From positions 1-36,055 of the IMG/VR virus record IMGVR_UViG_3300020410_000031: DNA of 36,055 bases. One strand, given 5' to 3'. Of this stretch, positions 2,577 through 29,036 are shown piece by piece. How positions within the stretch are numbered: position 1 is the stretch's first letter; the number at the start of each line of letters is the position of its first letter. This stretch comes from a virus. The notes under the pieces are model-generated. The model was not told where the DNA came from and did no database searches. It saw nothing but the letters and a program-made list of their open reading frames with translations. The translations under genes and the position numbers were made by a program.

Positions 2577-2810
2577 CTAGCTTACTAGTAACCTACCGCC
2601 CCTAATATCGTAATTAAGGTCAGTTTTACCGTAGCCGATACTTTTATAATACGCTAGGGCGTTAGCGTAGGTATAACCGCCTACTTTTTTAGCCCTATTA
2701 ATATTATGAGACGCCCCGTTTTTATTAACGTAAGTTAATTTAGCGGTAGCGTTAATATTAGCTACGTTTACTTTAACGCTAGGTTTTTTATTACTATTTA
2801 ATTTAGCCAT
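2577..2810 (-). CDS. Small basic paralogous protein B (77 aa)
   Basis: A 77-residue lysine-rich protein starting MAKLN and paralogous to the product of 1872-2099. The shared features are the MAKLN start, an HNINRAK-type central block, and the C-terminal Y-x-NALA-x-YK then GYGKTDLNYD. The two genes share organisation (promoter with a TTTACT -35, hairpin terminator, upstream palindromes), so the whole module was duplicated. It has an AGGTAAA site before the start. No known family; soluble. The N-terminal third is the most diverged part, which suggests the conserved C-terminal half is the functional core. Confidence 0.75.
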   Translation of the reverse strand: MAKLNSNKKPSVKVNVANINATAKLTYVNKNGASHNINRAKKVGGYTYANALAYYKSIGYGKTDLNYDIRGGRLLVS

Positions 2811-18557: not shown

Positions 18558-21500
18558 ATGGCAACTTATGTAAATAATCTCAGGTTAAAAGAAATATCCA
18601 CAGGAGATGAGTCGGGTACTTGGGGCACTAGCACTAATACTAACTTAACTTTAGTAGGTGAAGCATTCGGTTACGCAACTAAAGCTGTAGCTAACGCTTC
18701 AACAGATACACTCACTATACCAGACGGCAGTGAAACCGACAGCGAACCTAGAAGAATGTACCTCAAACTCACAGGTGGAGGTCAAGCTTGTACTGTGACT
18801 TTAGCACCAAACACAGTTTCTAAAGTTTGGTTAATTGAAAACGCAACAAGTTATACACTCACAATGTCACAAGGTAGTGGTGCCAATGTAGCAATATTAG
18901 CAGGTCAGGTAAAAATGATAGCTACAGACGGAGCAGGTTCTGGTGCAGCAGTTTACGACTTACTTCAAGACTTAGCTATACCAGATTTATTTATAGACGA
19001 TGATTTAAAATTACAATCAGATGGAGCTATTATAAGTTTTGGTGCAGACGGAGATATAACACTTACACACACAGCCGATACAGGTTTAACTACTAACGGC
19101 ACTTTTCAAGCCACAACCATCACTGCAACTACAGCTTTTGTACCAGATGCTAGTGACGGAGCTGCATTAGGTACAAGTTCGCTTGAGTTTAGCGATTTAT
19201 TTTTAGCAGACGGTGCAGTTATAAATTTAGGTGCTGATCAAGACACCACTTTAACTCACGTAGCTGACACAGGTATATTACTTAACAGTACAAGACAATT
19301 ACAGTTTGGTGATTCTGGTACATATATACACCAATCAGCAGATGGAGTACTAGACCTAGTTTCAGACACTGAAATAGAAATAAACGCTACTACTATTGAT
19401 ATAAACGGTAATGCAGACGTATCAGGAACAGTTACCGCTACTGGTACTTCTGTTTTTGCTAGTCTTGACATTTCAGGAGATATAGATGTAGACGGAACTA
19501 CTAACTTAGATGCAGTAGATATTGATGGAGCTGTAGATGTAGCAGGTATTATTACTACAAGCACACCTGGAAGTAACAATGTAAGATTAGGTGATGGTGC
19601 TGGTGCTGCAATAGAAAGTGGCGGAACTAGAAATGTTGCCATAGGCTCTAATGCTGGTGCTGCAATAACTACTGGTGATTATAATGTAGCTATTGGATAT
19701 AATGCTCTTAATGCAGAAGATACAGGAACTAGGTCAACGGCTGTAGGTTATTTTGCTTTAGATACACAAAACAATGATGACGCTAACCATAATACAGCAT
19801 TAGGCTTTACTGCGTTAGAAAAAACAACAACTGGTCAATATAATACAGGTTTAGGTTCACAAGCACTTAATGCTAATACAACTGCTAATAACAATACAGC
19901 AGTTGGATATAATTCTTTAGTGTTAAACACTACAGGTAGACAAAATGTAGCAGTAGGTTCTACGAGCCTTGATGCAAACACAACTGGAGAAAACAATACT
20001 GCTGTAGGATACGATGCCCTTTCTGCTAATACAACAGCAGATGAAAATACAGGAGTCGGAGGTTTTGCTCTTAATGCAAATACTACAGGTGATAAAAATA
20101 CAGCAGTTGGTTTATATTCTTTACTTAGCAATACTGAAGGCACACACAATGTTGCTATTGGTAGAAGTGCTTTACAGAGCAACACTACAGCAAGTCATAA
20201 TGTAGCAGTAGGCTCTACTTGCCTTGATGCTAATACCACAGGTGCTCAAAATGTTGGTATAGGCAGAGATACTTTATCAGCTAATACAACTGGTCAAGAT
20301 AACGTAGGTGTTGGTTATGCATCACTTCAAGCAGCCACTACAGCAAGTAACAATACAGGGCTTGGCTCTAAATCATTAAGGTCAAACACTACGGGGGCTC
20401 AAAACACAGCAATAGGTGCTGAGTGTGCAGACGCAATTACTACAGGCTCTAACAATACAGCTGTTGGTTATGAAGCTATGGGTAAGCTAACAACTGGTAC
20501 TGATAATGTTGCTATGGGTAGAGCAGCTTTACTAGACACTACATCAGGAGCAGGTAATGTTGCTATAGGTGTTGAATCGTTAGAAAACAATACAGGTAAT
20601 GAAAACACAGCAATAGGTAAACATGCTTTAAGAGGTAATACGACTGGTGGTAGTAATGTTGCTATCGGTATTAATGCTCTAAATACTGATGATACAGGAA
20701 GTTATACTGTAGCTATAGGTAGAAACGCTTTATTAAATCAAAATGCTGGAGATAATTCTGCAAACGTAGCTGTTGGTTATAATACAGGTTCAGCTATTAC
20801 AACAGGAACAAGTAATACTTTAATCGGTTATATTGTTGGTGATGCAATAACAACTGCTGGTGGTAATACAGCAATGGGATATGCAGCATTAACTAACTGT
20901 ACCACAGGCGACTCTCATACTATTATGGGTTTTGAAGCTGGTGAAGATTTAAGTACGGGAGCACACGCTGTTTTCTTAGGTTATAGAGCAGCCATGAACT
21001 CAACCACAGGTAATTATAATGTTGTTATAGGTAGTAATTCTGCCGCACAAATGACTACAGGTAGTAGTAACACAGTACTAGGTTATGGTGCTGGTACTTC
21101 AATAGTAGATTCATCTAGTAATATATTAATAGGTTATGATGCTGAAAGTAGTAGTGGTGGTTCTAGTGAATTAGTCATAGGTGTTTCTGTAGTTGGTAAA
21201 GGCGATAACACAGGTTTTATATCTGCGAATGGAAGTATATATCAAGGTAATAATTCATCATCTTGGGCAACAACTTCTGACAGAAGAATTAAAAAGAATA
21301 TAGAAGATAATAACATAGGTTTAGAAGCTATAAATAAAATACAAGTTAAAAACTTTGAATATAGAACTAAAGATGAAATAACTGATTTTGATAATGTTGA
21401 TTCAGTAACAGTTAATAAAGAAGGAGTGCAAGTAGGAGTTATAGCACAAGAAATAGAAAATGTTTTACCAGATGTAGTCAAAGAAGAATCAACAGGAGTA

Positions 21501-21605
21501 AAAACTGTTGACCCAGATAATATTACTTGGTATCTTGTAAACGCAGTAAAAGAACTTTCTGCACAAGTAGAAGAATTAAAAGCTAAATTAAACGAAGGAG
21601 AATGA
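18558..21605 (+). CDS. Tail fibre or spike with YadA-like repeats and S74 chaperone domain
   Basis: 1015 residues, the longest complete gene here. Residues 1-130 are a phage-type attachment domain (GDESGTWGTSTNTNL). Residues about 335-890 consist of dozens of 14-to-16-residue repeats of the form N-T-A-V-G-x-x-A-L-x-x-N-T-T-G, the left-handed parallel beta-roll seen in YadA-type adhesin heads. The C-terminus carries a peptidase S74 intramolecular chaperone: TTSDRRIKKNI with Ser907-Asp908, then VGVIAQEIENVLPDVV and a terminal coiled coil. The chaperone trimerises the fibre and cuts itself off at the Ser. It is the probable receptor-binding protein. Confidence 0.88.
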   Translation: MATYVNNLRLKEISTGDESGTWGTSTNTNLTLVGEAFGYATKAVANASTDTLTIPDGSETDSEPRRMYLKLTGGGQACTVTLAPNTVSKVWLIENATSYTLTMSQGSGANVAILAGQVKMIATDGAGSGAAVYDLLQDLAIPDLFIDDDLKLQSDGAIISFGADGDITLTHTADTGLTTNGTFQATTITATTAFVPDASDGAALGTSSLEFSDLFLADGAVINLGADQDTTLTHVADTGILLNSTRQLQFGDSGTYIHQSADGVLDLVSDTEIEINATTIDINGNADVSGTVTATGTSVFASLDISGDIDVDGTTNLDAVDIDGAVDVAGIITTSTPGSNNVRLGDGAGAAIESGGTRNVAIGSNAGAAITTGDYNVAIGYNALNAEDTGTRSTAVGYFALDTQNNDDANHNTALGFTALEKTTTGQYNTGLGSQALNANTTANNNTAVGYNSLVLNTTGRQNVAVGSTSLDANTTGENNTAVGYDALSANTTADENTGVGGFALNANTTGDKNTAVGLYSLLSNTEGTHNVAIGRSALQSNTTASHNVAVGSTCLDANTTGAQNVGIGRDTLSANTTGQDNVGVGYASLQAATTASNNTGLGSKSLRSNTTGAQNTAIGAECADAITTGSNNTAVGYEAMGKLTTGTDNVAMGRAALLDTTSGAGNVAIGVESLENNTGNENTAIGKHALRGNTTGGSNVAIGINALNTDDTGSYTVAIGRNALLNQNAGDNSANVAVGYNTGSAITTGTSNTLIGYIVGDAITTAGGNTAMGYAALTNCTTGDSHTIMGFEAGEDLSTGAHAVFLGYRAAMNSTTGNYNVVIGSNSAAQMTTGSSNTVLGYGAGTSIVDSSSNILIGYDAESSSGGSSELVIGVSVVGKGDNTGFISANGSIYQGNNSSSWATTSDRRIKKNIEDNNIGLEAINKIQVKNFEYRTKDEITDFDNVDSVTVNKEGVQVGVIAQEIENVLPDVVKEESTGVKTVDPDNITWYLVNAVKELSAQVEELKAKLNEGE

Positions 21606-22479: not shown

Positions 22480-22859
22480 TGGCTAAATCACCTGATGCGT
22501 TTGTTTATAACGCTACATTAGAACGTATAGTAGATGGCGATACTTTTGATTGTTGTCTAGATTTAGGTTTTGATGTAAAGCTACACAAACAACGCGTCAG
22601 ACTTGCAGGTATAGATACACCTGAAAGTAGAACTAGAGATTTAGCAGAAAAGAAACTAGGTCTAGCAGCAAAAGCACGATTAAAAGAATTGTGTATAGGC
22701 ACTTTAAAAGTTAAGTCTTTAGGTAAAGGAAAGTATGGTCGTATATTAGGCATACCTTATACAGAAGATGGCAGAGATATATGTCAAGTGTTAATAAAAG
22801 AGGGTCATGCCGTAGCATACGACGGAGGCAAAAAGAAAAAAGTTTGGGGTGATTACTAA
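22479..22859 (+). CDS. SNase-fold (thermonuclease-like) nuclease
   Basis: 126 residues, a compact staphylococcal-nuclease domain without signal peptide. The catalytic set is present: D19-G-D21-T, R41 in VRLAGIDTPE with D46, T47 and E49, and R88 in KYGRILG, corresponding to R35, D40, T41, E43 and R87 of S. aureus nuclease. This family cuts DNA and RNA using calcium. As an intracellular enzyme it may degrade host DNA or process phage DNA ends. It lies between membrane genes and the curli cluster, co-translated with both neighbours. Confidence 0.85.
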   Translation: MAKSPDAFVYNATLERIVDGDTFDCCLDLGFDVKLHKQRVRLAGIDTPESRTRDLAEKKLGLAAKARLKELCIGTLKVKSLGKGKYGRILGIPYTEDGRDICQVLIKEGHAVAYDGGKKKKVWGDY

Positions 22860-23209
22860 TGGAATCAGTCGTCACTTTAATTCAAGAAGTAGGGTTTCCT
22901 ATCGCTGCAGCTCTTGGGCTTGGGTGGTTTATTTATAAACTTATCATGCGTATAGTTGACGGCATGGAAACTAAACTAGACACCGTTGATGAAAAAGTAG
23001 AAGGACAGATAGCAGCAATAGAAGAAAGGTTAGGAACTAAATTAGATACACAACACGGTATATTAGTAGCCCTAATAGATAGAGTACGTAGTTTAGATAA
23101 TGAAATTATAAGGCAAGATACGTTAGTAAAAACTATACTAGGTGTACCACAACTTATAGACAGTAATAAAATAGCTAAAGCGAGTAGAGATGACCAAAGA
23201 AAAGACTGA
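22859..23209 (+). CDS. YvrJ-like membrane protein with periplasmic or cytoplasmic coiled coil
   Basis: 116 residues. The N-terminal helix VVTLIQEVGFPIAAALGLGWFIYKLIMRI resembles the YvrJ/holin-like short membrane proteins (GFPI motif). A long coiled coil follows (ETKLDTVDEKVEGQIAAIEERLGTKLD). The last 20 nt overlap csgF, so the two are coupled. It may be a membrane partner of the export system or a lysis accessory protein. YvrJ similarity is from pattern only. Confidence 0.62.
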   Translation: MESVVTLIQEVGFPIAAALGLGWFIYKLIMRIVDGMETKLDTVDEKVEGQIAAIEERLGTKLDTQHGILVALIDRVRSLDNEIIRQDTLVKTILGVPQLIDSNKIAKASRDDQRKD

Positions 23210-23675
23210 TAATACTTGGATTTATAGGGTAGCAGGATTGCTATGTATTTTCTTTTTTCTTGTAGTTTTAACAAAACCTTTATTGGCAGACACTATAACT
23301 TTTAAATTTAAAAATCCTAGTTTTAGTGGCATAGGCACGTCAAGTCACTACCTGACTATAGAAAACCAAGAGTTTAACCGTAAAGAAGCATTGAAAGCAG
23401 AAATCAAAGCTTTACAAGAACAAATAGAAAGAGATAAAGAAAATACCACTCTAGCTCGTTTTATCAGGAACCTCGAGAGTCGTATTTATGCACAACTTTC
23501 TAGACAATTAGTAGAAAATTTATTTGGGGAAACTCCCAGTACAGAGGGTACTTTAACCCTTGAAGGCAACACTATTAAATACAGCGTTGTTGATGGAATA
23601 ATTACTTTAACTATAACAGATGCAGATGGGAATGTTACGACTATATCTTTACCCGTTGGTAATTTTACTTTCTAG
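23190..23675 (+). CDS. csgF: CsgF-like curli assembly factor
   Basis: 161 residues. A signal-type helix (VAGLLCIFFFLVVLTKPLLA) is followed by a predicted mature start DTITFKFKNPSFSG, which matches E. coli CsgF GTMTFQFRNPNFGG. The middle helix LARFIRNLESRIYAQLSRQL aligns with the CsgF LDNFTQAIQSQILGGLL helix and the C-terminus with its VTDRKTGQTSTIQV strand. CsgF's N-terminus inserts in the CsgG barrel as a second constriction and its C-terminal part nucleates fibres at the surface. An extra coiled coil of about 25 residues (about 54-80) is not in E. coli CsgF. Overlaps csgG by 44 nt from the chosen csgG start. Confidence 0.9.
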   Translation: MTKEKTDNTWIYRVAGLLCIFFFLVVLTKPLLADTITFKFKNPSFSGIGTSSHYLTIENQEFNRKEALKAEIKALQEQIERDKENTTLARFIRNLESRIYAQLSRQLVENLFGETPSTEGTLTLEGNTIKYSVVDGIITLTITDADGNVTTISLPVGNFTF

Positions 23676-24489
23676 TTGTAGCCTTACACCTGTAGATAAA
23701 AGTCTTACAACTACTGAAACTTTACCAAACGTTTTACAAGCACAGTCTGAGGAGCTGTTTAATGTAGCTCAACCTAAAGTACCCATAGTAGTAGCAGTTT
23801 ACCCTAATAGTTTCACTGATCAAACAGGTCAACGTAAAAGTAATAGTGAGTTTGCTCTATTCAGTACAGCTTTAACACAAGCACCCAATCATTTACTAAT
23901 ACGTTCACTTAAAAACGCTTCTAACGGTAAGTTTTTTAGAGTAGCAGAAAGGGTAGGTTTAGATAATTTAACTAAAGAAAGACAACTTATACGTTCAGCA
24001 AGAGAGCAAAATGAAGATAAAGATGGGGCTAAACCACTTATGCCTTTATTATTTGCTGGTGTTTTAGTTGAAGGTGCAGTTATAGGTTATGACACTAATA
24101 TAAAAAGTGGTGGCATTGGAGCTAGATATTTAGGTATAGGTTCTAGTAAACAGTATAGAATAGATAATATTACTATCTCCCTACGTATGGTGAGTGTAGC
24201 TACAGGTGAAGTTTTAATTGATGTATTAATAACTAAAGAAATATACAGTTATGGTCAATCACAAGACGTATTTAAGTTTATTGAAGCAGGTACAGAGCTA
24301 GTAGAAATAGAGATGGGTGACTCACAAAACGAAGTCACAACACTAGCACTTTTAAGGGCTATAGAGTCAGGAGTTTTAGAAATCATAAAAATAGGTTATA
24401 GTAAAGGTTTCTGGGAGGAAAAATATGAAACAATTGATATTGATAAGCCTGATTGTGGCGACGAGTGTAACGAAGCTATACGGGGCTGA
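23632..24489 (+). CDS. csgG: CsgG-like curli export lipoprotein pore
   Basis: I choose ATG 23632, giving a signal MLRLYLYPLVILLSSC that matches E. coli MQRLFLLVAVMLLSGC; ATG 23620 would add four residues. The lipobox LSSC predicts an outer-membrane lipoprotein. The body aligns throughout: DQTGQ, ERQLIRSAREQN, VEGAVIGYDTNIKSGGIGARYLGIG, and the pair LRMVSVATGEVL with VFKFIE. Family knowledge: nine copies make a 36-strand outer-membrane channel with a narrow periplasmic eyelet. By eye the eyelet loop differs: F56 is kept but Y51 is not obviously present. Its 3' end overlaps the next gene by 65 nt. Confidence 0.94.
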   Translation: MLRLYLYPLVILLSSCSLTPVDKSLTTTETLPNVLQAQSEELFNVAQPKVPIVVAVYPNSFTDQTGQRKSNSEFALFSTALTQAPNHLLIRSLKNASNGKFFRVAERVGLDNLTKERQLIRSAREQNEDKDGAKPLMPLLFAGVLVEGAVIGYDTNIKSGGIGARYLGIGSSKQYRIDNITISLRMVSVATGEVLIDVLITKEIYSYGQSQDVFKFIEAGTELVEIEMGDSQNEVTTLALLRAIESGVLEIIKIGYSKGFWEEKYETIDIDKPDCGDECNEAIRG

Positions 24490-25141
24490 TAATGAAATAT
24501 ATGTTGACCAGAGTGGTGCAACAGCTAATATAGATTTAGAACAACTTGGTTCTGGAAATATAATAGGTGGTTTAAATTCTGCAGCAGGTAGTTTAACTGC
24601 TTTAGATTTAGATGGGCTTAGTTTAACGTTAGATATAAATCAATTAGGTGACACTAATAAATTTTTAGGCGATATATTAGGTGATAGTATCACAGGTTTT
24701 TTTGAGTTTGACGGTGATAGTAATACTTTTACTATACAAGGTGACCCAACAAATACTTATGGTATAGACAGTTCTAATTACAACGTAAGCGTAACAGGTA
24801 CTACTAATACTTTTACTTTAGATCACGGCACAAGTGCTCTTGCTGCTACGTTAGATTTAGATTGGATTATACAAGGCGATGGCAACACTTTTGATTTTGA
24901 CATAAATTATGATGGTGGTACTTCTTATGTTGATGTTGATGGAGATAGTAATACTCTGAACTTTACAGGTTCTGGTTATGCTGGTGGATATTTTTATTTA
25001 GACCAGACAGGTAATTCTAGAACATTTAATATACAACAATTAAGTACACAAGATAATGACTGGCTTAAGATTATTTCTAACGGTAATAACGGTACTGTTT
25101 GCGTCATTCAAAACGACCAAGGTACAAGCACAAGCTGTTGA
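24425..25141 (+). CDS. Secreted curlin-like repeat protein (probable amyloid substrate)
   Basis: 238 residues with a clear signal (MKQLILISLIVATSVTKLYG) and strong GGGAGG ribosome binding site within csgG. The mature protein repeats the curlin style Q-x-G-x-x-N with alternating hydrophobics: DQSGATANIDLEQLGSGN, INQLGDTNKF, IIQGDGNTFDF, LDQTGNSRTFNIQQ and a G-D-S-N-T group. These resemble CsgA/CsgB repeats (S-x5-Q-x-G-x-G-N-x-A-x3-Q) but are more irregular and Asp-rich. Two Cys close the C-terminus. With csgF and csgG directly upstream it is the likely exported fibre subunit or nucleator. Amyloid formation itself is inferred. Confidence 0.78.
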   Translation: MKQLILISLIVATSVTKLYGADNEIYVDQSGATANIDLEQLGSGNIIGGLNSAAGSLTALDLDGLSLTLDINQLGDTNKFLGDILGDSITGFFEFDGDSNTFTIQGDPTNTYGIDSSNYNVSVTGTTNTFTLDHGTSALAATLDLDWIIQGDGNTFDFDINYDGGTSYVDVDGDSNTLNFTGSGYAGGYFYLDQTGNSRTFNIQQLSTQDNDWLKIISNGNNGTVCVIQNDQGTSTSC

Positions 25142-26168
25142 TATAGGTGATATTTCTGAATTAAGGGGTAACGCCCAAATACTAAGGGATAAACCTTATC
25201 AAGCTGATTTAGAATTTGCTATACAAAGCAATGATGAAGCTATAACTACTAACGGTAGAATGGCCATAACTTTTCTTGACGAGTCGGTAGTCAAACTTAC
25301 TGAACACTCACAACTACTCATTGATGAGTATATTTACGACCCTGACCCTAGTAAATCAAAAATGTCACTTAATTTTGCTTTAGGTACAGCTAGATTTATA
25401 ACAGGTAATTTAAACCGTATAGATAAACAGAATATAAAACTTAGTACACCTACAGCGAATATCGCCATACGTGGTACAGATTTCACGGCTACCGTAGATG
25501 AGTTAGGTAGAAGTTTAATTATACTATTACCAGACGCTCTAGGACTCTCCAGCGGTGAAATAGAAGTAGTTACGGCTATGGGTACGGTTATATTAAATAA
25601 GCCCTATGAAGCTACTACAGTTAATGTGTTTGAATCAGCACCTAGTAAACCTGTTGTATTAGATTTAAGTTTAGATATTATTGATAATATGTTAATAGTT
25701 ACCCCGCCTAAAGAGGAACAAGTTTTAACAGAAGAGTCTAACGTAGTAAAAACTAATAATTTTTTAGACTTTAATGATTTAGATATTGATTATTTAGCAG
25801 AAGATTTTTTAGATGATAACAGTTTAGAATTTACAGAACTAGATATAAATTATTTAGATGTAAATTTTTTAGAAGATTTACTAGACATACTTGACGTACT
25901 TGCTATTAAAGAAGAGGAGGATCAATTAGCGTTGGCTACAGGTATCAACATAAGCGGAACTTTGATAGGTCAAGATGCTAATACACAAATTACAACAATT
26001 ATTACAGGTCAAACTATAAGTTTACGCAGAAAAGTAAGCGAAAACGCTAGGGTTGACTTAAACGTAGAGGGCAGTTATACAGTAATCTTTATTCAAGATG
26101 GGGTTTCAAATACAGTAAAAATAAACGGTGGCGGTGATTCTGTTATAACTATAAAACAGAGCAGTTAA
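25056..26168 (+). CDS. FecR-domain secreted protein
   Basis: 370 residues. A signal peptide (LRLFLTVITVLFASF, cleavage near VQAQA) precedes a FecR domain (about 30-160): REMs such as LRGNAQILRDK, LDESVVKLTEHSQLLIDEY and the signature TPTANIAIRGTDFTATVDE. The C-terminal half has several acidic D/L-rich segments (DFNDLDIDYLAEDFLDD, LDVNFLEDLLDIL). FecR domains sense signals or anchor in the envelope, often next to CHASE2 cyclases in bacteria. The start overlaps the curlin gene by 86 nt and the cyclase begins 1 nt after its stop, so the three are coupled. No sigma factor or TonB receptor accompanies it. Confidence 0.85.
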   Translation: MTGLRLFLTVITVLFASFKTTKVQAQAVDIGDISELRGNAQILRDKPYQADLEFAIQSNDEAITTNGRMAITFLDESVVKLTEHSQLLIDEYIYDPDPSKSKMSLNFALGTARFITGNLNRIDKQNIKLSTPTANIAIRGTDFTATVDELGRSLIILLPDALGLSSGEIEVVTAMGTVILNKPYEATTVNVFESAPSKPVVLDLSLDIIDNMLIVTPPKEEQVLTEESNVVKTNNFLDFNDLDIDYLAEDFLDDNSLEFTELDINYLDVNFLEDLLDILDVLAIKEEEDQLALATGINISGTLIGQDANTQITTIITGQTISLRRKVSENARVDLNVEGSYTVIFIQDGVSNTVKINGGGDSVITIKQSS

Positions 26169-26169
26169 A

Positions 26170-27903
26170 ATGAAACGATACATAATACCATTATTAATAT
26201 TATTAGCATTACCTTTATTATTTCAAAGTACACCTACTGAAATAATTAAATTAAAAACATTTGATGCTTTGATAAAAACTCCAGAGCCATCAGGTAATTT
26301 TGTTATACTTAATATTACAGAGGACGATGTAGAACGTGAGGGCGGTTATCCATTACCTAGAGATCGTTTAGCAAACATACAACTTGAATTACTGGGCAAA
26401 GGTGCATTAGGTGTAGGTTGGGTCATATCATTCCCACAAGCAGATAGAATGGGCGGTGATAGTAGGTTCGTTAGCAGTTTAGGTTATGCACCTAGTGTTT
26501 TGGCTACGTTTGAAAACGGTAAAGGTGTGTACCCTAAAACAACAGGAACTGTCATAAGAGGACCAGATGCTGGCGGTATACAATCTACAGGCATAAAAGA
26601 AAACTATTATGTGTATGAAAATATTTTGCAGGGTGTTGCTACAGCTCCTACTGAGGTTGACCAACTTGTAAGGCGTATTCCTCTCTTACTTAAGAGCCCG
26701 AATGGTTGGTCAGCTTCTTTCGGCACACAAGTTTTAAAAATTTTAACCAACACTCCAACATACATAATCACAACCAATGATAACGGGGTACAAGAAATAG
26801 CAGTTAGGGGTTTACCACCAGTTAAAACAGATAGTTTTGGTCGTAAATGGATAAGTTGGGTTGATACGCCACAAACAGATTTACAAGAAATGAACGTAAA
26901 TGGTAAATTTGTGTTTGTAGGTGTTACCGCTAACGGTGTCATGCCACAAGTTGCTACTCCTGTAGGTTTACTAGAGCCACACAAAATACAGGCAGCACTC
27001 GCTGAATCTATACTGATACAAAATAGTCCTTACATACCTGATTGGTCACTAGCTGTTGAATTAACTGTATTTTTATTTGGTGTAGTGTTAATATGGTTTT
27101 TACTTCAATATTTAGGTATAACTTTAGGGATAGTTACTGCGTCAGGTGTAATGATACTTACTGGTTTTTTAGGTTATTATTCTATAACTAAAGGAATATT
27201 GATTGATGTAACTTGGACATTAATTTCTGAATTTATAACTGCTTCTACTGCATTTTACCTACGTTTTAGACAACAATATAAATTACGTCAATTAATTAAA
27301 AAACAGTTTGAACATTATCTCGATCCACGACAGGTAAAATTACTACAGAAAAATCCTGATTTATTAAAATTAGGTGGTGAAAAAAGAAACTGTACTTTTT
27401 TATTCACCGACGTAAGAGGTTTTACATCTTTATCAGAAAAATTAGAACCAGAACAGGTTACTGAAATTATGAACAAAGCCTTAACTATACAATCAAATGC
27501 TGTAAAAGAGTATGGAGGTATGGTTGATAAGTATATTGGTGATGCAATGATGGCTATATTTAATGCTCCTATAGATTTACCTAACCATGAAGATAGAGCT
27601 ATAAAAACAGCATTAAAAATAATAGAAGATATGAAAAAAGCAGATATAGGAGTAGCAATAGGAATAGGAATTAATACGGGTAAAGCAGTAGTAGGCAACA
27701 TGGGAAGCGAAACTAGGTTTGATTATTCAGCGATAGGAGACCCTGTTAACACTGCTGCTAGGCTTGAATCAGCAACTAAAGAAGTAGGTGTAGATTTAAT
27801 AATAGGTGAAAATACTAAAAAAAGTTGCGATTTTAAGTTAAAATTGTTAAAACCAATTAAAGTTAAGGGTAAAAAAGAATCATTAACTATATATACGGTA
27901 TGA
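26170..27903 (+). CDS. CHASE2-domain class III adenylate cyclase
   Basis: 577 residues. A signal anchor (5-18) leads to a periplasmic CHASE2 sensor (about 25-288, with ILNITEDDVEREGGYPLPRDRL). Three transmembrane helices lie at about 293-315, 320-338 and 343-365. The cytoplasmic class III catalytic domain (about 405-577) has all key residues: metal Asp D414 (FTDVRGF) and D458 (KYIGDAM), adenine-selecting K454 and D524 (IGDPVN), and transition-state N527 and R531 (NTAARLE). Family knowledge: it turns ATP into cyclic AMP in response to a periplasmic or FecR-linked signal. It would raise host cAMP. A stop-start overlap couples it to the lysis genes. Confidence 0.93.
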   Translation: MKRYIIPLLILLALPLLFQSTPTEIIKLKTFDALIKTPEPSGNFVILNITEDDVEREGGYPLPRDRLANIQLELLGKGALGVGWVISFPQADRMGGDSRFVSSLGYAPSVLATFENGKGVYPKTTGTVIRGPDAGGIQSTGIKENYYVYENILQGVATAPTEVDQLVRRIPLLLKSPNGWSASFGTQVLKILTNTPTYIITTNDNGVQEIAVRGLPPVKTDSFGRKWISWVDTPQTDLQEMNVNGKFVFVGVTANGVMPQVATPVGLLEPHKIQAALAESILIQNSPYIPDWSLAVELTVFLFGVVLIWFLLQYLGITLGIVTASGVMILTGFLGYYSITKGILIDVTWTLISEFITASTAFYLRFRQQYKLRQLIKKQFEHYLDPRQVKLLQKNPDLLKLGGEKRNCTFLFTDVRGFTSLSEKLEPEQVTEIMNKALTIQSNAVKEYGGMVDKYIGDAMMAIFNAPIDLPNHEDRAIKTALKIIEDMKKADIGVAIGIGINTGKAVVGNMGSETRFDYSAIGDPVNTAARLESATKEVGVDLIIGENTKKSCDFKLKLLKPIKVKGKKESLTIYTV

Positions 27904-28115
27904 ATATGAATAAAACATTAAGTGTTCAAGACGTGGCTGCAGATCTTGCAGTTTCTAAAAAAGAAAACGCAGAACGTTGGAAAACTGCATTCAATGAGTT
28001 TGCTGATATTAAACAAGAAATAACCTCTATAAACAATACTATAAAAATGGCTACGTTTGGCGTATTTAGTTTTATAGGTGCATTAACTATAGCGGTCGTA
28101 ACGGTGATTATATGA
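27900..28115 (+). CDS. Small C-terminal-anchored membrane protein, possible lysis accessory
   Basis: 71 residues, ATGA overlap with the cyclase and overlapping the holin start by 4 nt. Residues 15-48 are a charged helix with coiled-coil character (KKENAERWKTAFNEFADIKQEI) and 49-71 a single transmembrane segment (MATFGVFSFIGALTIAVVTVII). This topology resembles small membrane lysis proteins such as XhlA-type factors, but there is no specific family match. It belongs to the lysis cassette by position. Confidence 0.68.
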   Translation: MNMNKTLSVQDVAADLAVSKKENAERWKTAFNEFADIKQEITSINNTIKMATFGVFSFIGALTIAVVTVII

Positions 28116-28591
28116 AAGGAATATTAAAAAACATAGTAGGAGCAGTAGCTCCAACAATAGGTACAGCATTAGGTGGACCAATGGGTAATATGGCTATGGG
28201 TAAAATAGCTGAAGTATTAGGCGTATCTAATGACCAAAAATCTATACAACAAGCTATACAAAACGCTACACCAGAACAAATGTTAGAGTTGAAAAAAGCT
28301 GAGCAAGAGTTTGAAGTACAGATGAAAGAACTTGACGTAGACGTTTTTAAACTTGAAGTAGCTGACAAACAAAATGCTAGAGGCATGTTCAGTAAAGATT
28401 GGACTGCTAGAATAATAGGTTTATTTACTATAGGTGGATTTTTAGGATACATATTTTTAGTTACCTTACAACCACCAGAACAAAACAGTGAAGCACTGAT
28501 TAACTTAGTGCTAGGTTACTTAGGAGGGTTAGCAAGTGCAATTATTTCGTTCTATTTTGGGGCGTCTCACACCAGCGATAAAGGAGAGTAG
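28112..28591 (+). CDS. Holin of the GTA 3-TM type
   Basis: 159 residues. The family signature ADKQNARGMFSKDWTARIIGLFTIGGFLGYIFLVTLQ (85-120) and a second helix NLVLGYLGGLASAIISFYFGASH (131-153) match the phage and gene-transfer-agent holin_3TM proteins as far as I recognise. The first 30 residues are Gly-rich and could insert as the third segment. It would make holes in the inner membrane to release the endolysin. The TAG stop ends 1 nt before the lysozyme start, inside the GGAGAG Shine-Dalgarno. Confidence 0.82.
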   Translation: MKGILKNIVGAVAPTIGTALGGPMGNMAMGKIAEVLGVSNDQKSIQQAIQNATPEQMLELKKAEQEFEVQMKELDVDVFKLEVADKQNARGMFSKDWTARIIGLFTIGGFLGYIFLVTLQPPEQNSEALINLVLGYLGGLASAIISFYFGASHTSDKGE

Positions 28592-28592
28592 T

Positions 28593-29036
28593 ATGAAAAT
28601 ATCACAAGAGGGCTTGTCCCTTATAAAAAAATTTGAGGGTTGTGAGCTTGAAGCCTATAAATGTGCTGCGGGCGTATGGACAATAGGTTACGGTTCAACA
28701 AAAGGAGTAGAAGAGGGCAATACCATCACACAAGAAGAAGCTGATAAACTTCTACTGGATGAGATGGAAGAGTACGAAGGATACATAAACGATATGGTTA
28801 AAGTAGATTTAAAACAAAATGAGTTTGATGCTTTAGTTTCGTGGGTATATAATTTAGGTTCTTCTAATCTTAGTTCTTCTACTTTATTACAAAAATTAAA
28901 TACTAAAGAATGGGACGATGTACCTAATCAAATAAAAAGATGGAATAAAGCGGGTGGTAAAGTTTTACAAGGCTTAATAAGAAGAAGAGAAGCAGAAGCT
29001 TTATTATTCGAGGGTAAAGAGTGGCACGAGGTTTAA
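28593..29036 (+). CDS. Endolysin, T4-type lysozyme (GH24)
   Basis: 147 residues from ATG 28593, chosen because AAGGAGAG lies just upstream; a start at 28536 would add 19 residues inside the holin. The catalytic Glu is E15 in KKFEGCELEAY. The TIGYGS motif (30-35) fits the GH24 signature, with Cys24 at the place where T4 lysozyme has Asp20, a variant found in other phage lysozymes. The C-terminal helical lobe has VSWVYNLGSSNLSSSTLL and LQGLIRRREAEALLF. It cuts the N-acetylmuramyl bonds of peptidoglycan. No signal peptide, so it depends on the holin. Confidence 0.92.
   Translation: MKISQEGLSLIKKFEGCELEAYKCAAGVWTIGYGSTKGVEEGNTITQEEADKLLLDEMEEYEGYINDMVKVDLKQNEFDALVSWVYNLGSSNLSSSTLLQKLNTKEWDDVPNQIKRWNKAGGKVLQGLIRRREAEALLFEGKEWHEV

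Follow-up and report, generated by a model that had tools for sequence, protein, structure and literature searches.

The open reading frame at positions 26170–27903 (plus strand) of the stretch of DNA analysed here, hereafter the window (36,055 nucleotides, positions 1 to 36,055 of the IMG/VR virus record IMGVR_UViG_3300020410_000031), almost certainly encodes a CHASE2–class III nucleotidyl cyclase of 577 residues. There is equally little doubt that the cyclase belongs to a curli (type VIII secretion) module, which it closes on a pelagiphage-like genome. We propose that it is a secretion-coupled inner-membrane sensor cyclase, paired with the FecR-domain protein encoded upstream and serving as the signalling end of the module, a model whose chances as a whole we put at about even. 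Four features are evident at the level of sequence: the domains, the full catalytic set, the unvarying order of the genes and the purifying selection. A cyclase-bearing pelagiphage curli module is already known and was published in 2022; the new observations concern the company that FecR and CHASE2 keep, the tail of the FecR protein, the presumed host and a second secretion cassette.

The identification of the cyclase rests on Pfam, residue alignments, an AlphaFold2 model and Foldseek. Pfam places CHASE2 at residues 11–305 (E 2.9e-22, 79.9 bits against a curated cut-off of 26.3) and Guanylate_cyc at residues 405–573 (E 2.6e-21, 76.5 bits against a cut-off of 21.9). Among solved class III cyclases, the model (mean pLDDT 84.7) is matched best by rmsd (1.8) by Pseudomonas aeruginosa CyaB, with a target TM of 0.83, and by Spirulina CyaC with a TM to target of about 0.76–0.81. 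Hydropathy and the model together indicate a helix at the N terminus and further membrane-helical sequence at about residues 293–365, which places CHASE2 between N-terminal and C-terminal membrane helices, the layout of a CHASE2 sensor. A preliminary description, made from the letters alone, had reported a catalytically complete membrane adenylate cyclase with a CHASE2 sensor and three membrane helices in a phage. Because the Pfam domains, the residue positions and the fold match agree, this description is right and not a chance resemblance; the three helices are compatible with hydropathy and model, the third being weakly hydrophobic. A chance reading frame or a pseudogene is ruled out, since about 80 relatives keep the frame open and conserved and show purifying selection (median pairwise dN/dS 0.19), with similar values for CHASE2 and the catalytic domain and a higher one for the membrane segment. 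The phage setting holds as well, the record being viral and carrying terminase, portal and capsid genes. Elsewhere in the window, positions 18558–21605 encode a 1015-residue protein, probably a tail fibre, with many T-G-x-x-N-x-A-x-G repeats like those of the YadA head and a C-terminal S74 chaperone, and two paralogous small reading frames (MAKLN...) lie at 1872–2099 and 2577–2810 (minus strand), in a stretch with few plus-strand genes.

All six catalytic residues originally listed (D414, D458, K454, D524, N527 and R531) were found at the positions given. D414 and D458 take the metal-binding role, K454 and S520 the adenine-binding role, and N527 and R531 the transition-state role; the two metal aspartates and the transition-state Asn/Arg are conserved and make the class III set complete. 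In mammalian cyclases, the corresponding catalytic residues are D396, D440, K938, D1018, N1025 and R1029, and the adenine-selecting acid (D1018) lies seven residues before the transition-state Asn. Counting back seven residues from N527 therefore identifies S520 as the adenine-selecting position, and HMMER alignments put S520 opposite Thr of bPAC and CyaB and opposite Gly of the guanylyl cyclase Cya2, in which Glu stands opposite K454. Thus, the completeness of the set stood, but the role of substrate selector earlier given to D524 did not, since the alignment puts S520 (Ser or Thr in relatives) in that position; D524 is the Asp of the G-D-x-V-N motif, which can occur in guanylyl cyclases too and does not discriminate between the two activities. 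The K454–S520 pair is of class IIIb type and very probably predicts ATP rather than GTP as the substrate; together with the purifying selection, it bears out the prediction of a complete membrane sensor-type cyclase that makes cAMP. Among 80 podovirus-type rows, 79 have Ser or Thr at 520 and 78 have Lys at 454, the two poor rows (L071, L079) being contig-edge fragments, and the D-K-D-S-N-R set is kept in 85 of 91 rows from the myophage type and other relatives. A Melnitz-type group of four rows (L082 7917–9968; L089, L091, L092) has Asp at 520 and Ser in place of N527, and these cyclases, given the lost transition-state Asn, may have an altered activity.

The genes preceding the cyclase, all on the plus strand, run CsgF–CsgG–curlin–FecR. 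They comprise the curli assembly protein CsgF (23190–23675; PF10614, E 4.3e-19), the outer-membrane curli export pore CsgG (23620–24489; PF03783, E 6.5e-46), a curlin-like (CsgA/B-type) repeat protein (24425–25141) and a FecR-domain protein with an N-terminal hydrophobic segment and a curlin-like C-terminal motif (25056–26168; PF04773, E 5.6e-10). The curlin-like protein has no match in Pfam and is assigned by a weak NCBIfam match to CsgB (E 0.0043), by position and by a family HMM; its counterpart in related published modules is named CsgA/B (PMC9599517). Upstream of CsgF, a small protein with one hydrophobic segment (22859–23209) occupies the place of the published module’s ‘histidine kinase’; Pfam finds no kinase domain in it, and the published kinase proteins are described as short and diverged. 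In relatives fetched with the cyclase, FecR lies upstream in 55/55 loci having at least 1.5 kb of upstream sequence, and the full order CsgF–CsgG–CsgA–FecR–cyclase is present in all 36 loci having at least 4.5 kb. Because these loci had been selected by the cyclase, the count was repeated with CsgG as the anchor, and FecR and a CHASE2 cyclase were found in each of the 53 phage loci having at least 4 kb downstream. HTVC008M-type loci show the order CsgF–CsgG–CsgA–FecR–CsgA–cyclase (23 of 25), as do HTVC008M and Melnitz themselves. The Melnitz paper states that csgA/csgB are lacking (PMC9004378); two curlin-associated repeat proteins are annotated in the Melnitz record (L082, 5107–5826 and 6885–7901), and the curlin HMM matches both. 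Four genuine alphaproteobacterial curli operons had no FecR or cyclase nearby, so curli does not generally depend on them.

Wittmers et al. (2022) described the curli module, FecR and adenylate cyclase included, from pelagimyophages and from podoviruses of the HTVC023P type, suggested that it arose in Alphaproteobacteria and passed from one phage family to another, and reported transcripts in seawater (PMC9599517); CsgF and CsgG in myophages have also been described (PMC7029224; PMC9004378). In addition, our two scans returned at least 597 and at least 585 viral contig stretches related to the cyclase, and together with the 2022 publication these tell against the earlier impression that phage cyclases are rare. 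A bacterial origin of the full module was considered and set aside: most of the relatives on genome contigs are curli-phage contigs that had been placed in MAG bins, and they were therefore not counted as bacterial. Such contigs (L084–L086, L089–L092, L313–L315) are binned into Pelagibacter, Neomarinimicrobiota, Flavobacteriaceae, Rhodobacteraceae and Pirellulales MAGs and can mislead searches for bacterial homologs. Conversely, the contig named Acinetobacter phage MD-2021a (L083, CAKLQH020000011.1) resembles a piece of bacterial chromosome (mfd, hscA, iscU), and its cyclase match was not accepted as a phage gene.

The host of the present phage, a marine one, is probably SAR11, judging from its kin. 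The closest terminases are those of Pelagibacter phage HTVC027P (61.5%) and phage 023Pt_psg01, that of a phage labelled Gammaproteobacteria also being at 60%, and capsid DNA likewise places the phage near the HTVC023P-type lineage. The host survey covered 148 genomes from the family to which Pelagibacter MED605 belongs, for which a completeness of at least 80 had been requested; named control genomes gave matches. Class III cyclases occur in 2/148 of these genomes, both on curli-phage contigs, and the same holds for CsgG. The cNMP-binding domain (PF00027) occurs in 11/148; one of these proteins, with FNR-like cysteines, is a regulator of the CRP/FNR type, and its genome is also the only one in which HTH_Crp_2 exceeds its cut-off; the others seen are long and of different architecture. 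Going by these profile searches, the presumed host family has essentially no CRP-type receptors, class III cyclases or CsgG, an observation that is new here; with a single, FNR-like regulator of this type in 148 genomes, the usual cAMP–CRP route is apparently unavailable.

FecR and CHASE2 are paired well beyond phages. Comparing the best matches to each family across 190 alphaproteobacterial genomes, we found FecR within 6 kb of CHASE2 at at least 27 of 149 CHASE2 places, about 0.8 being expected under a rough uniform model of 4-Mb genomes; among the matches listed, FecR was upstream in 24 and on the same strand in 23. A recognisable cyclase domain was present in 14 of 20 pairs fetched. In the SAR11 family, CHASE2 occurs in 26/148 genomes (about one sixth), two of these on phage contigs, and the ten chromosomal CHASE2 proteins inspected (L429–L438, with L316 among the genomes) are all CHASE2–SpoIIE phosphatases, nine of them with a FecR or FecR-like gene alongside (one, L435, weakly matched). 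Thus, FecR–CHASE2 is a recurrent bacterial gene pair, and SAR11-family relatives pair FecR with CHASE2–SpoIIE; both observations are new here. A single bacterial pair as the source of the phage FecR and cyclase was rejected: in a quick tree the phage cyclases stand apart from the FecR-paired bacterial ones, so the pairing looks recurrent. Published cases point both ways. In Sinorhizobium meliloti, cyaD1 (SMc02176) has the FecR gene SMc02177 next to it, in line with the pairing, but this FecR gene is dispensable for the plant-signal response tested, which counts against a sensing role (PMC5498481); CHASE2 cyclases respond via the outer-membrane barrel NsrA (PMC13001267), and a Burkholderia biofilm operon joins a LysM–FecR protein with a CHASE2 kinase (PMC5192318). 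Overall, we consider it likely that the FecR-domain protein of the window is the periplasmic partner of CHASE2.

The C-terminal end of the phage FecR proteins bears on what such a partner might recognize. The pattern G-x(1-3)-[NDS]-x-h-x-h-x-Q, which we take to be close to the curlin repeat pattern, ends 98 of 102 phage FecR proteins, whose tails are related to each other and hence not independent. The motif occurs at a frequency of 0.005 per 25 residues in other reading frames and about 1.3 times per phage curlin, and an HMM of the tail matched 12 phage curlins below E 1 (best E 0.0016) against one shuffled and no reversed sequence. The motif was found in 0/18 complete CHASE2-paired bacterial FecR proteins, and AlphaFold2 modelled the tail with low confidence. 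Given this relatedness and the poor model of the tail, the curlin-like ending of phage FecR proteins, also new here, is suggestive and not proof.

The position of the cyclase gene raises the alternative that it times lysis through joint translation with the lysis genes downstream. Its stop overlaps (ATGA, at 27900) the start of a gene for a 71-residue protein with a C-terminal hydrophobic helix and no family (27900–28115), and outside the curli module follow a membrane protein, possibly a holin (28112–28591; phrog_1544), and, about 0.6 kb on, an endolysin of the phage lysozyme family (28536–29036; PF00959, E 1.2e-50), all on the plus strand. A lysozyme lies within 2 kb of the cyclase in 47/54 podovirus-type loci, and for Melnitz a role of the phage CsgG pores in regulating lysis has been proposed (Buchholz et al.; PMC9004378). 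The tie to the lysis cassette remarked on in the preliminary description is not a constant one: none of 64 myophage-type loci has a matching lysozyme nearby, although the HMM was built from the podovirus type and could miss another endolysin family in myophages, and the HTVC008M and Melnitz annotations have structural, not lysis, genes beside the cyclase. Because the conserved neighbours are FecR and the curli genes (55/55, 36/36 and 53/53 loci) and not lysozyme, the cyclase travels with curli and adjoins lysis genes where the module inserted there; the overlap looks like a matter of insertion site, and control of lysis timing is improbable. An effect of phage cAMP, made on an envelope signal, on host catabolite control through cAMP–CRP, which had also been suggested from the sequence, fits a complete adenylyl cyclase with a periplasmic sensor, and cAMP feeds curli regulation in Gammaproteobacteria (Wittmers et al.; PMC9599517). 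Nevertheless, the single FNR-like regulator across the host family speaks against it, as does the finding of no phage-encoded cNMP-binding protein (PF00027) in the window or in 36 related contigs, many of them fragments, and we regard this effect as highly improbable.

Two further explanations retain the module but alter the roles of its last two genes. The cyclase could be a sensor or scaffold with dispensable activity, or could make another cyclic nucleotide, cGMP or of the pyrimidine type; hosts without a recognised cAMP receptor, the transition-state Asn lost in the Melnitz-type group and PADLOC PycC models that match the catalytic domain would all accord with this. Yet, PycC models match class III domains generally, and the gene’s neighbours are curli and lysis genes. 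Moreover, K454, Ser/Thr at 520 and the catalytic residues keep their adenine-type form in nearly all of the 80 and 91 rows, and purifying selection acts on the catalytic domain as strongly as it does on CHASE2, which makes a scaffold or a different product unlikely. Alternatively, FecR could be an iron-dependent regulator of the curli module, with the cyclase as a separate regulator. FecR is known in ferric-citrate signalling. An iron-dependent FecR is also the reading that Wittmers et al. gave of the module (PMC9599517); however, no ECF sigma factor or TonB-dependent receptor was found among the neighbouring genes scanned, which did not include every small reading frame of the window, and FecR and CHASE2 genes are paired in bacteria far above chance, leaving an iron regulator quite improbable. 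Rereading FecR as the partner of CHASE2 gives the published module a testable logic.

In the proposed secretion-coupled model, the direction of sensing, the cyclase activity and the receptor are what we infer. During infection, CsgG and CsgF would form an outer-membrane pore through which the curlin-like protein would be exported, and the FecR protein, with its curlin-repeat-like tail, would report on subunits or pore in the periplasm. CHASE2 would read FecR, and the cytoplasmic dimer would then turn ATP into cAMP. Export as the signal for the cyclase is plausible but somewhat short of an even bet. The cAMP might act on an unrecognised receptor or leave the cell; it would not act through a CRP-type regulator, because the presumed SAR11 genomes appear to encode none. 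Few organisms in the sea are as abundant as SAR11 and their phages, and if these phages do make cAMP, infection would bring in a signal molecule of which the host, apparently with neither class III cyclase nor CRP, normally makes no use, and its target would be new. HTVC008M on HTCC1062 is a cultured pair that carries the module.

A related cyclase sits in a second kind of export locus. In the quick tree, the nearest non-curli relative of the phage cyclase is L087/L088, which comes from a MAG bin and lies on contigs with phage-type genes, and its neighbours encode a 1317-residue FecR-domain protein, a TolC-like protein (OEP), a short relative of the phage ABC-transporter families, and HlyD. 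A scan of viral contigs with this cyclase returned 80 loci, a few of them curli modules; the order FecR protein–OEP–ABC–HlyD–cyclase was whole in eight loci with enough upstream sequence, and its partial end was seen in seven more. Large marine phage contigs with the type I secretion-like cassette include L343, L355, L365, L378, L381 and L383, besides L087/L088. Gp23 gave no match and was uninformative as a marker for these phages; the family B-type phage DNA polymerase (phrog_262) was used instead and is carried by one contig of 137 kb. Matches to the HlyD gene in the phage isolate collection were weak, the cassette was not found in the isolates searched, and no earlier description of it was found in the open-licence literature. 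This association, in large marine phages, of a cyclase relative with a type I secretion-like cassette in which FecR is part of the big protein is new here. One possible, though doubtful, generalization is that FecR and the CHASE2 cyclase form a portable secretion-coupled signalling unit on two unrelated export systems, curli and the FecR-big protein/OEP/ABC-like/HlyD cassette. With FecR on or beside the exported cargo in both, the cyclase would then report export, delivering cAMP to CRP-less hosts whose own FecR–CHASE2 pairs drive SpoIIE; cAMP output in such hosts would imply an undescribed cAMP receptor or exported cAMP.

Compared with known systems, the window is closest to the published pelagiphage type VIII secretion module, sharing the set and order of CsgF, CsgG, CsgA/B, FecR and cyclase and, by terminase and capsid similarity, the same HTVC023P-type podovirus lineage. 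The main text of that study does not mention CHASE2, takes FecR as the iron regulator and places histidine kinases upstream (PMC9599517), whereas no kinase domain is recognisable in the small protein encoded at that place here. The adenylate/guanylyl cyclase of HTVC008M (KC465899, AGE60353.1; 34.5% identity) also joins CHASE2 to a class III domain, comes last in a curli module and has its catalytic set intact, but it is separated from FecR by a second curlin-type gene, and its annotated neighbours include no lysis gene. The class IIIb adenylyl cyclases Spirulina CyaC and Pseudomonas CyaB are alike in fold (TM to target about 0.76–0.83) and in the Lys and Ser/Thr pair; they have other sensor domains, and the activity of the phage enzyme is a prediction. 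CyaD1, CyaD2 and CyaK of S. meliloti are CHASE2 cyclases too, with the FecR-domain SMc02177 by cyaD1 and an outer-membrane barrel in the signalling (PMC5498481; PMC13001267), but they are encoded on the chromosome and signal via Clr, a CRP-family regulator, and no curli genes are described there. The Burkholderia BiofilmReg operon likewise has a CHASE2 sensor immediately preceded by a FecR gene, with a kinase and response regulator as its output (PMC5192318) where the phage has a cyclase.
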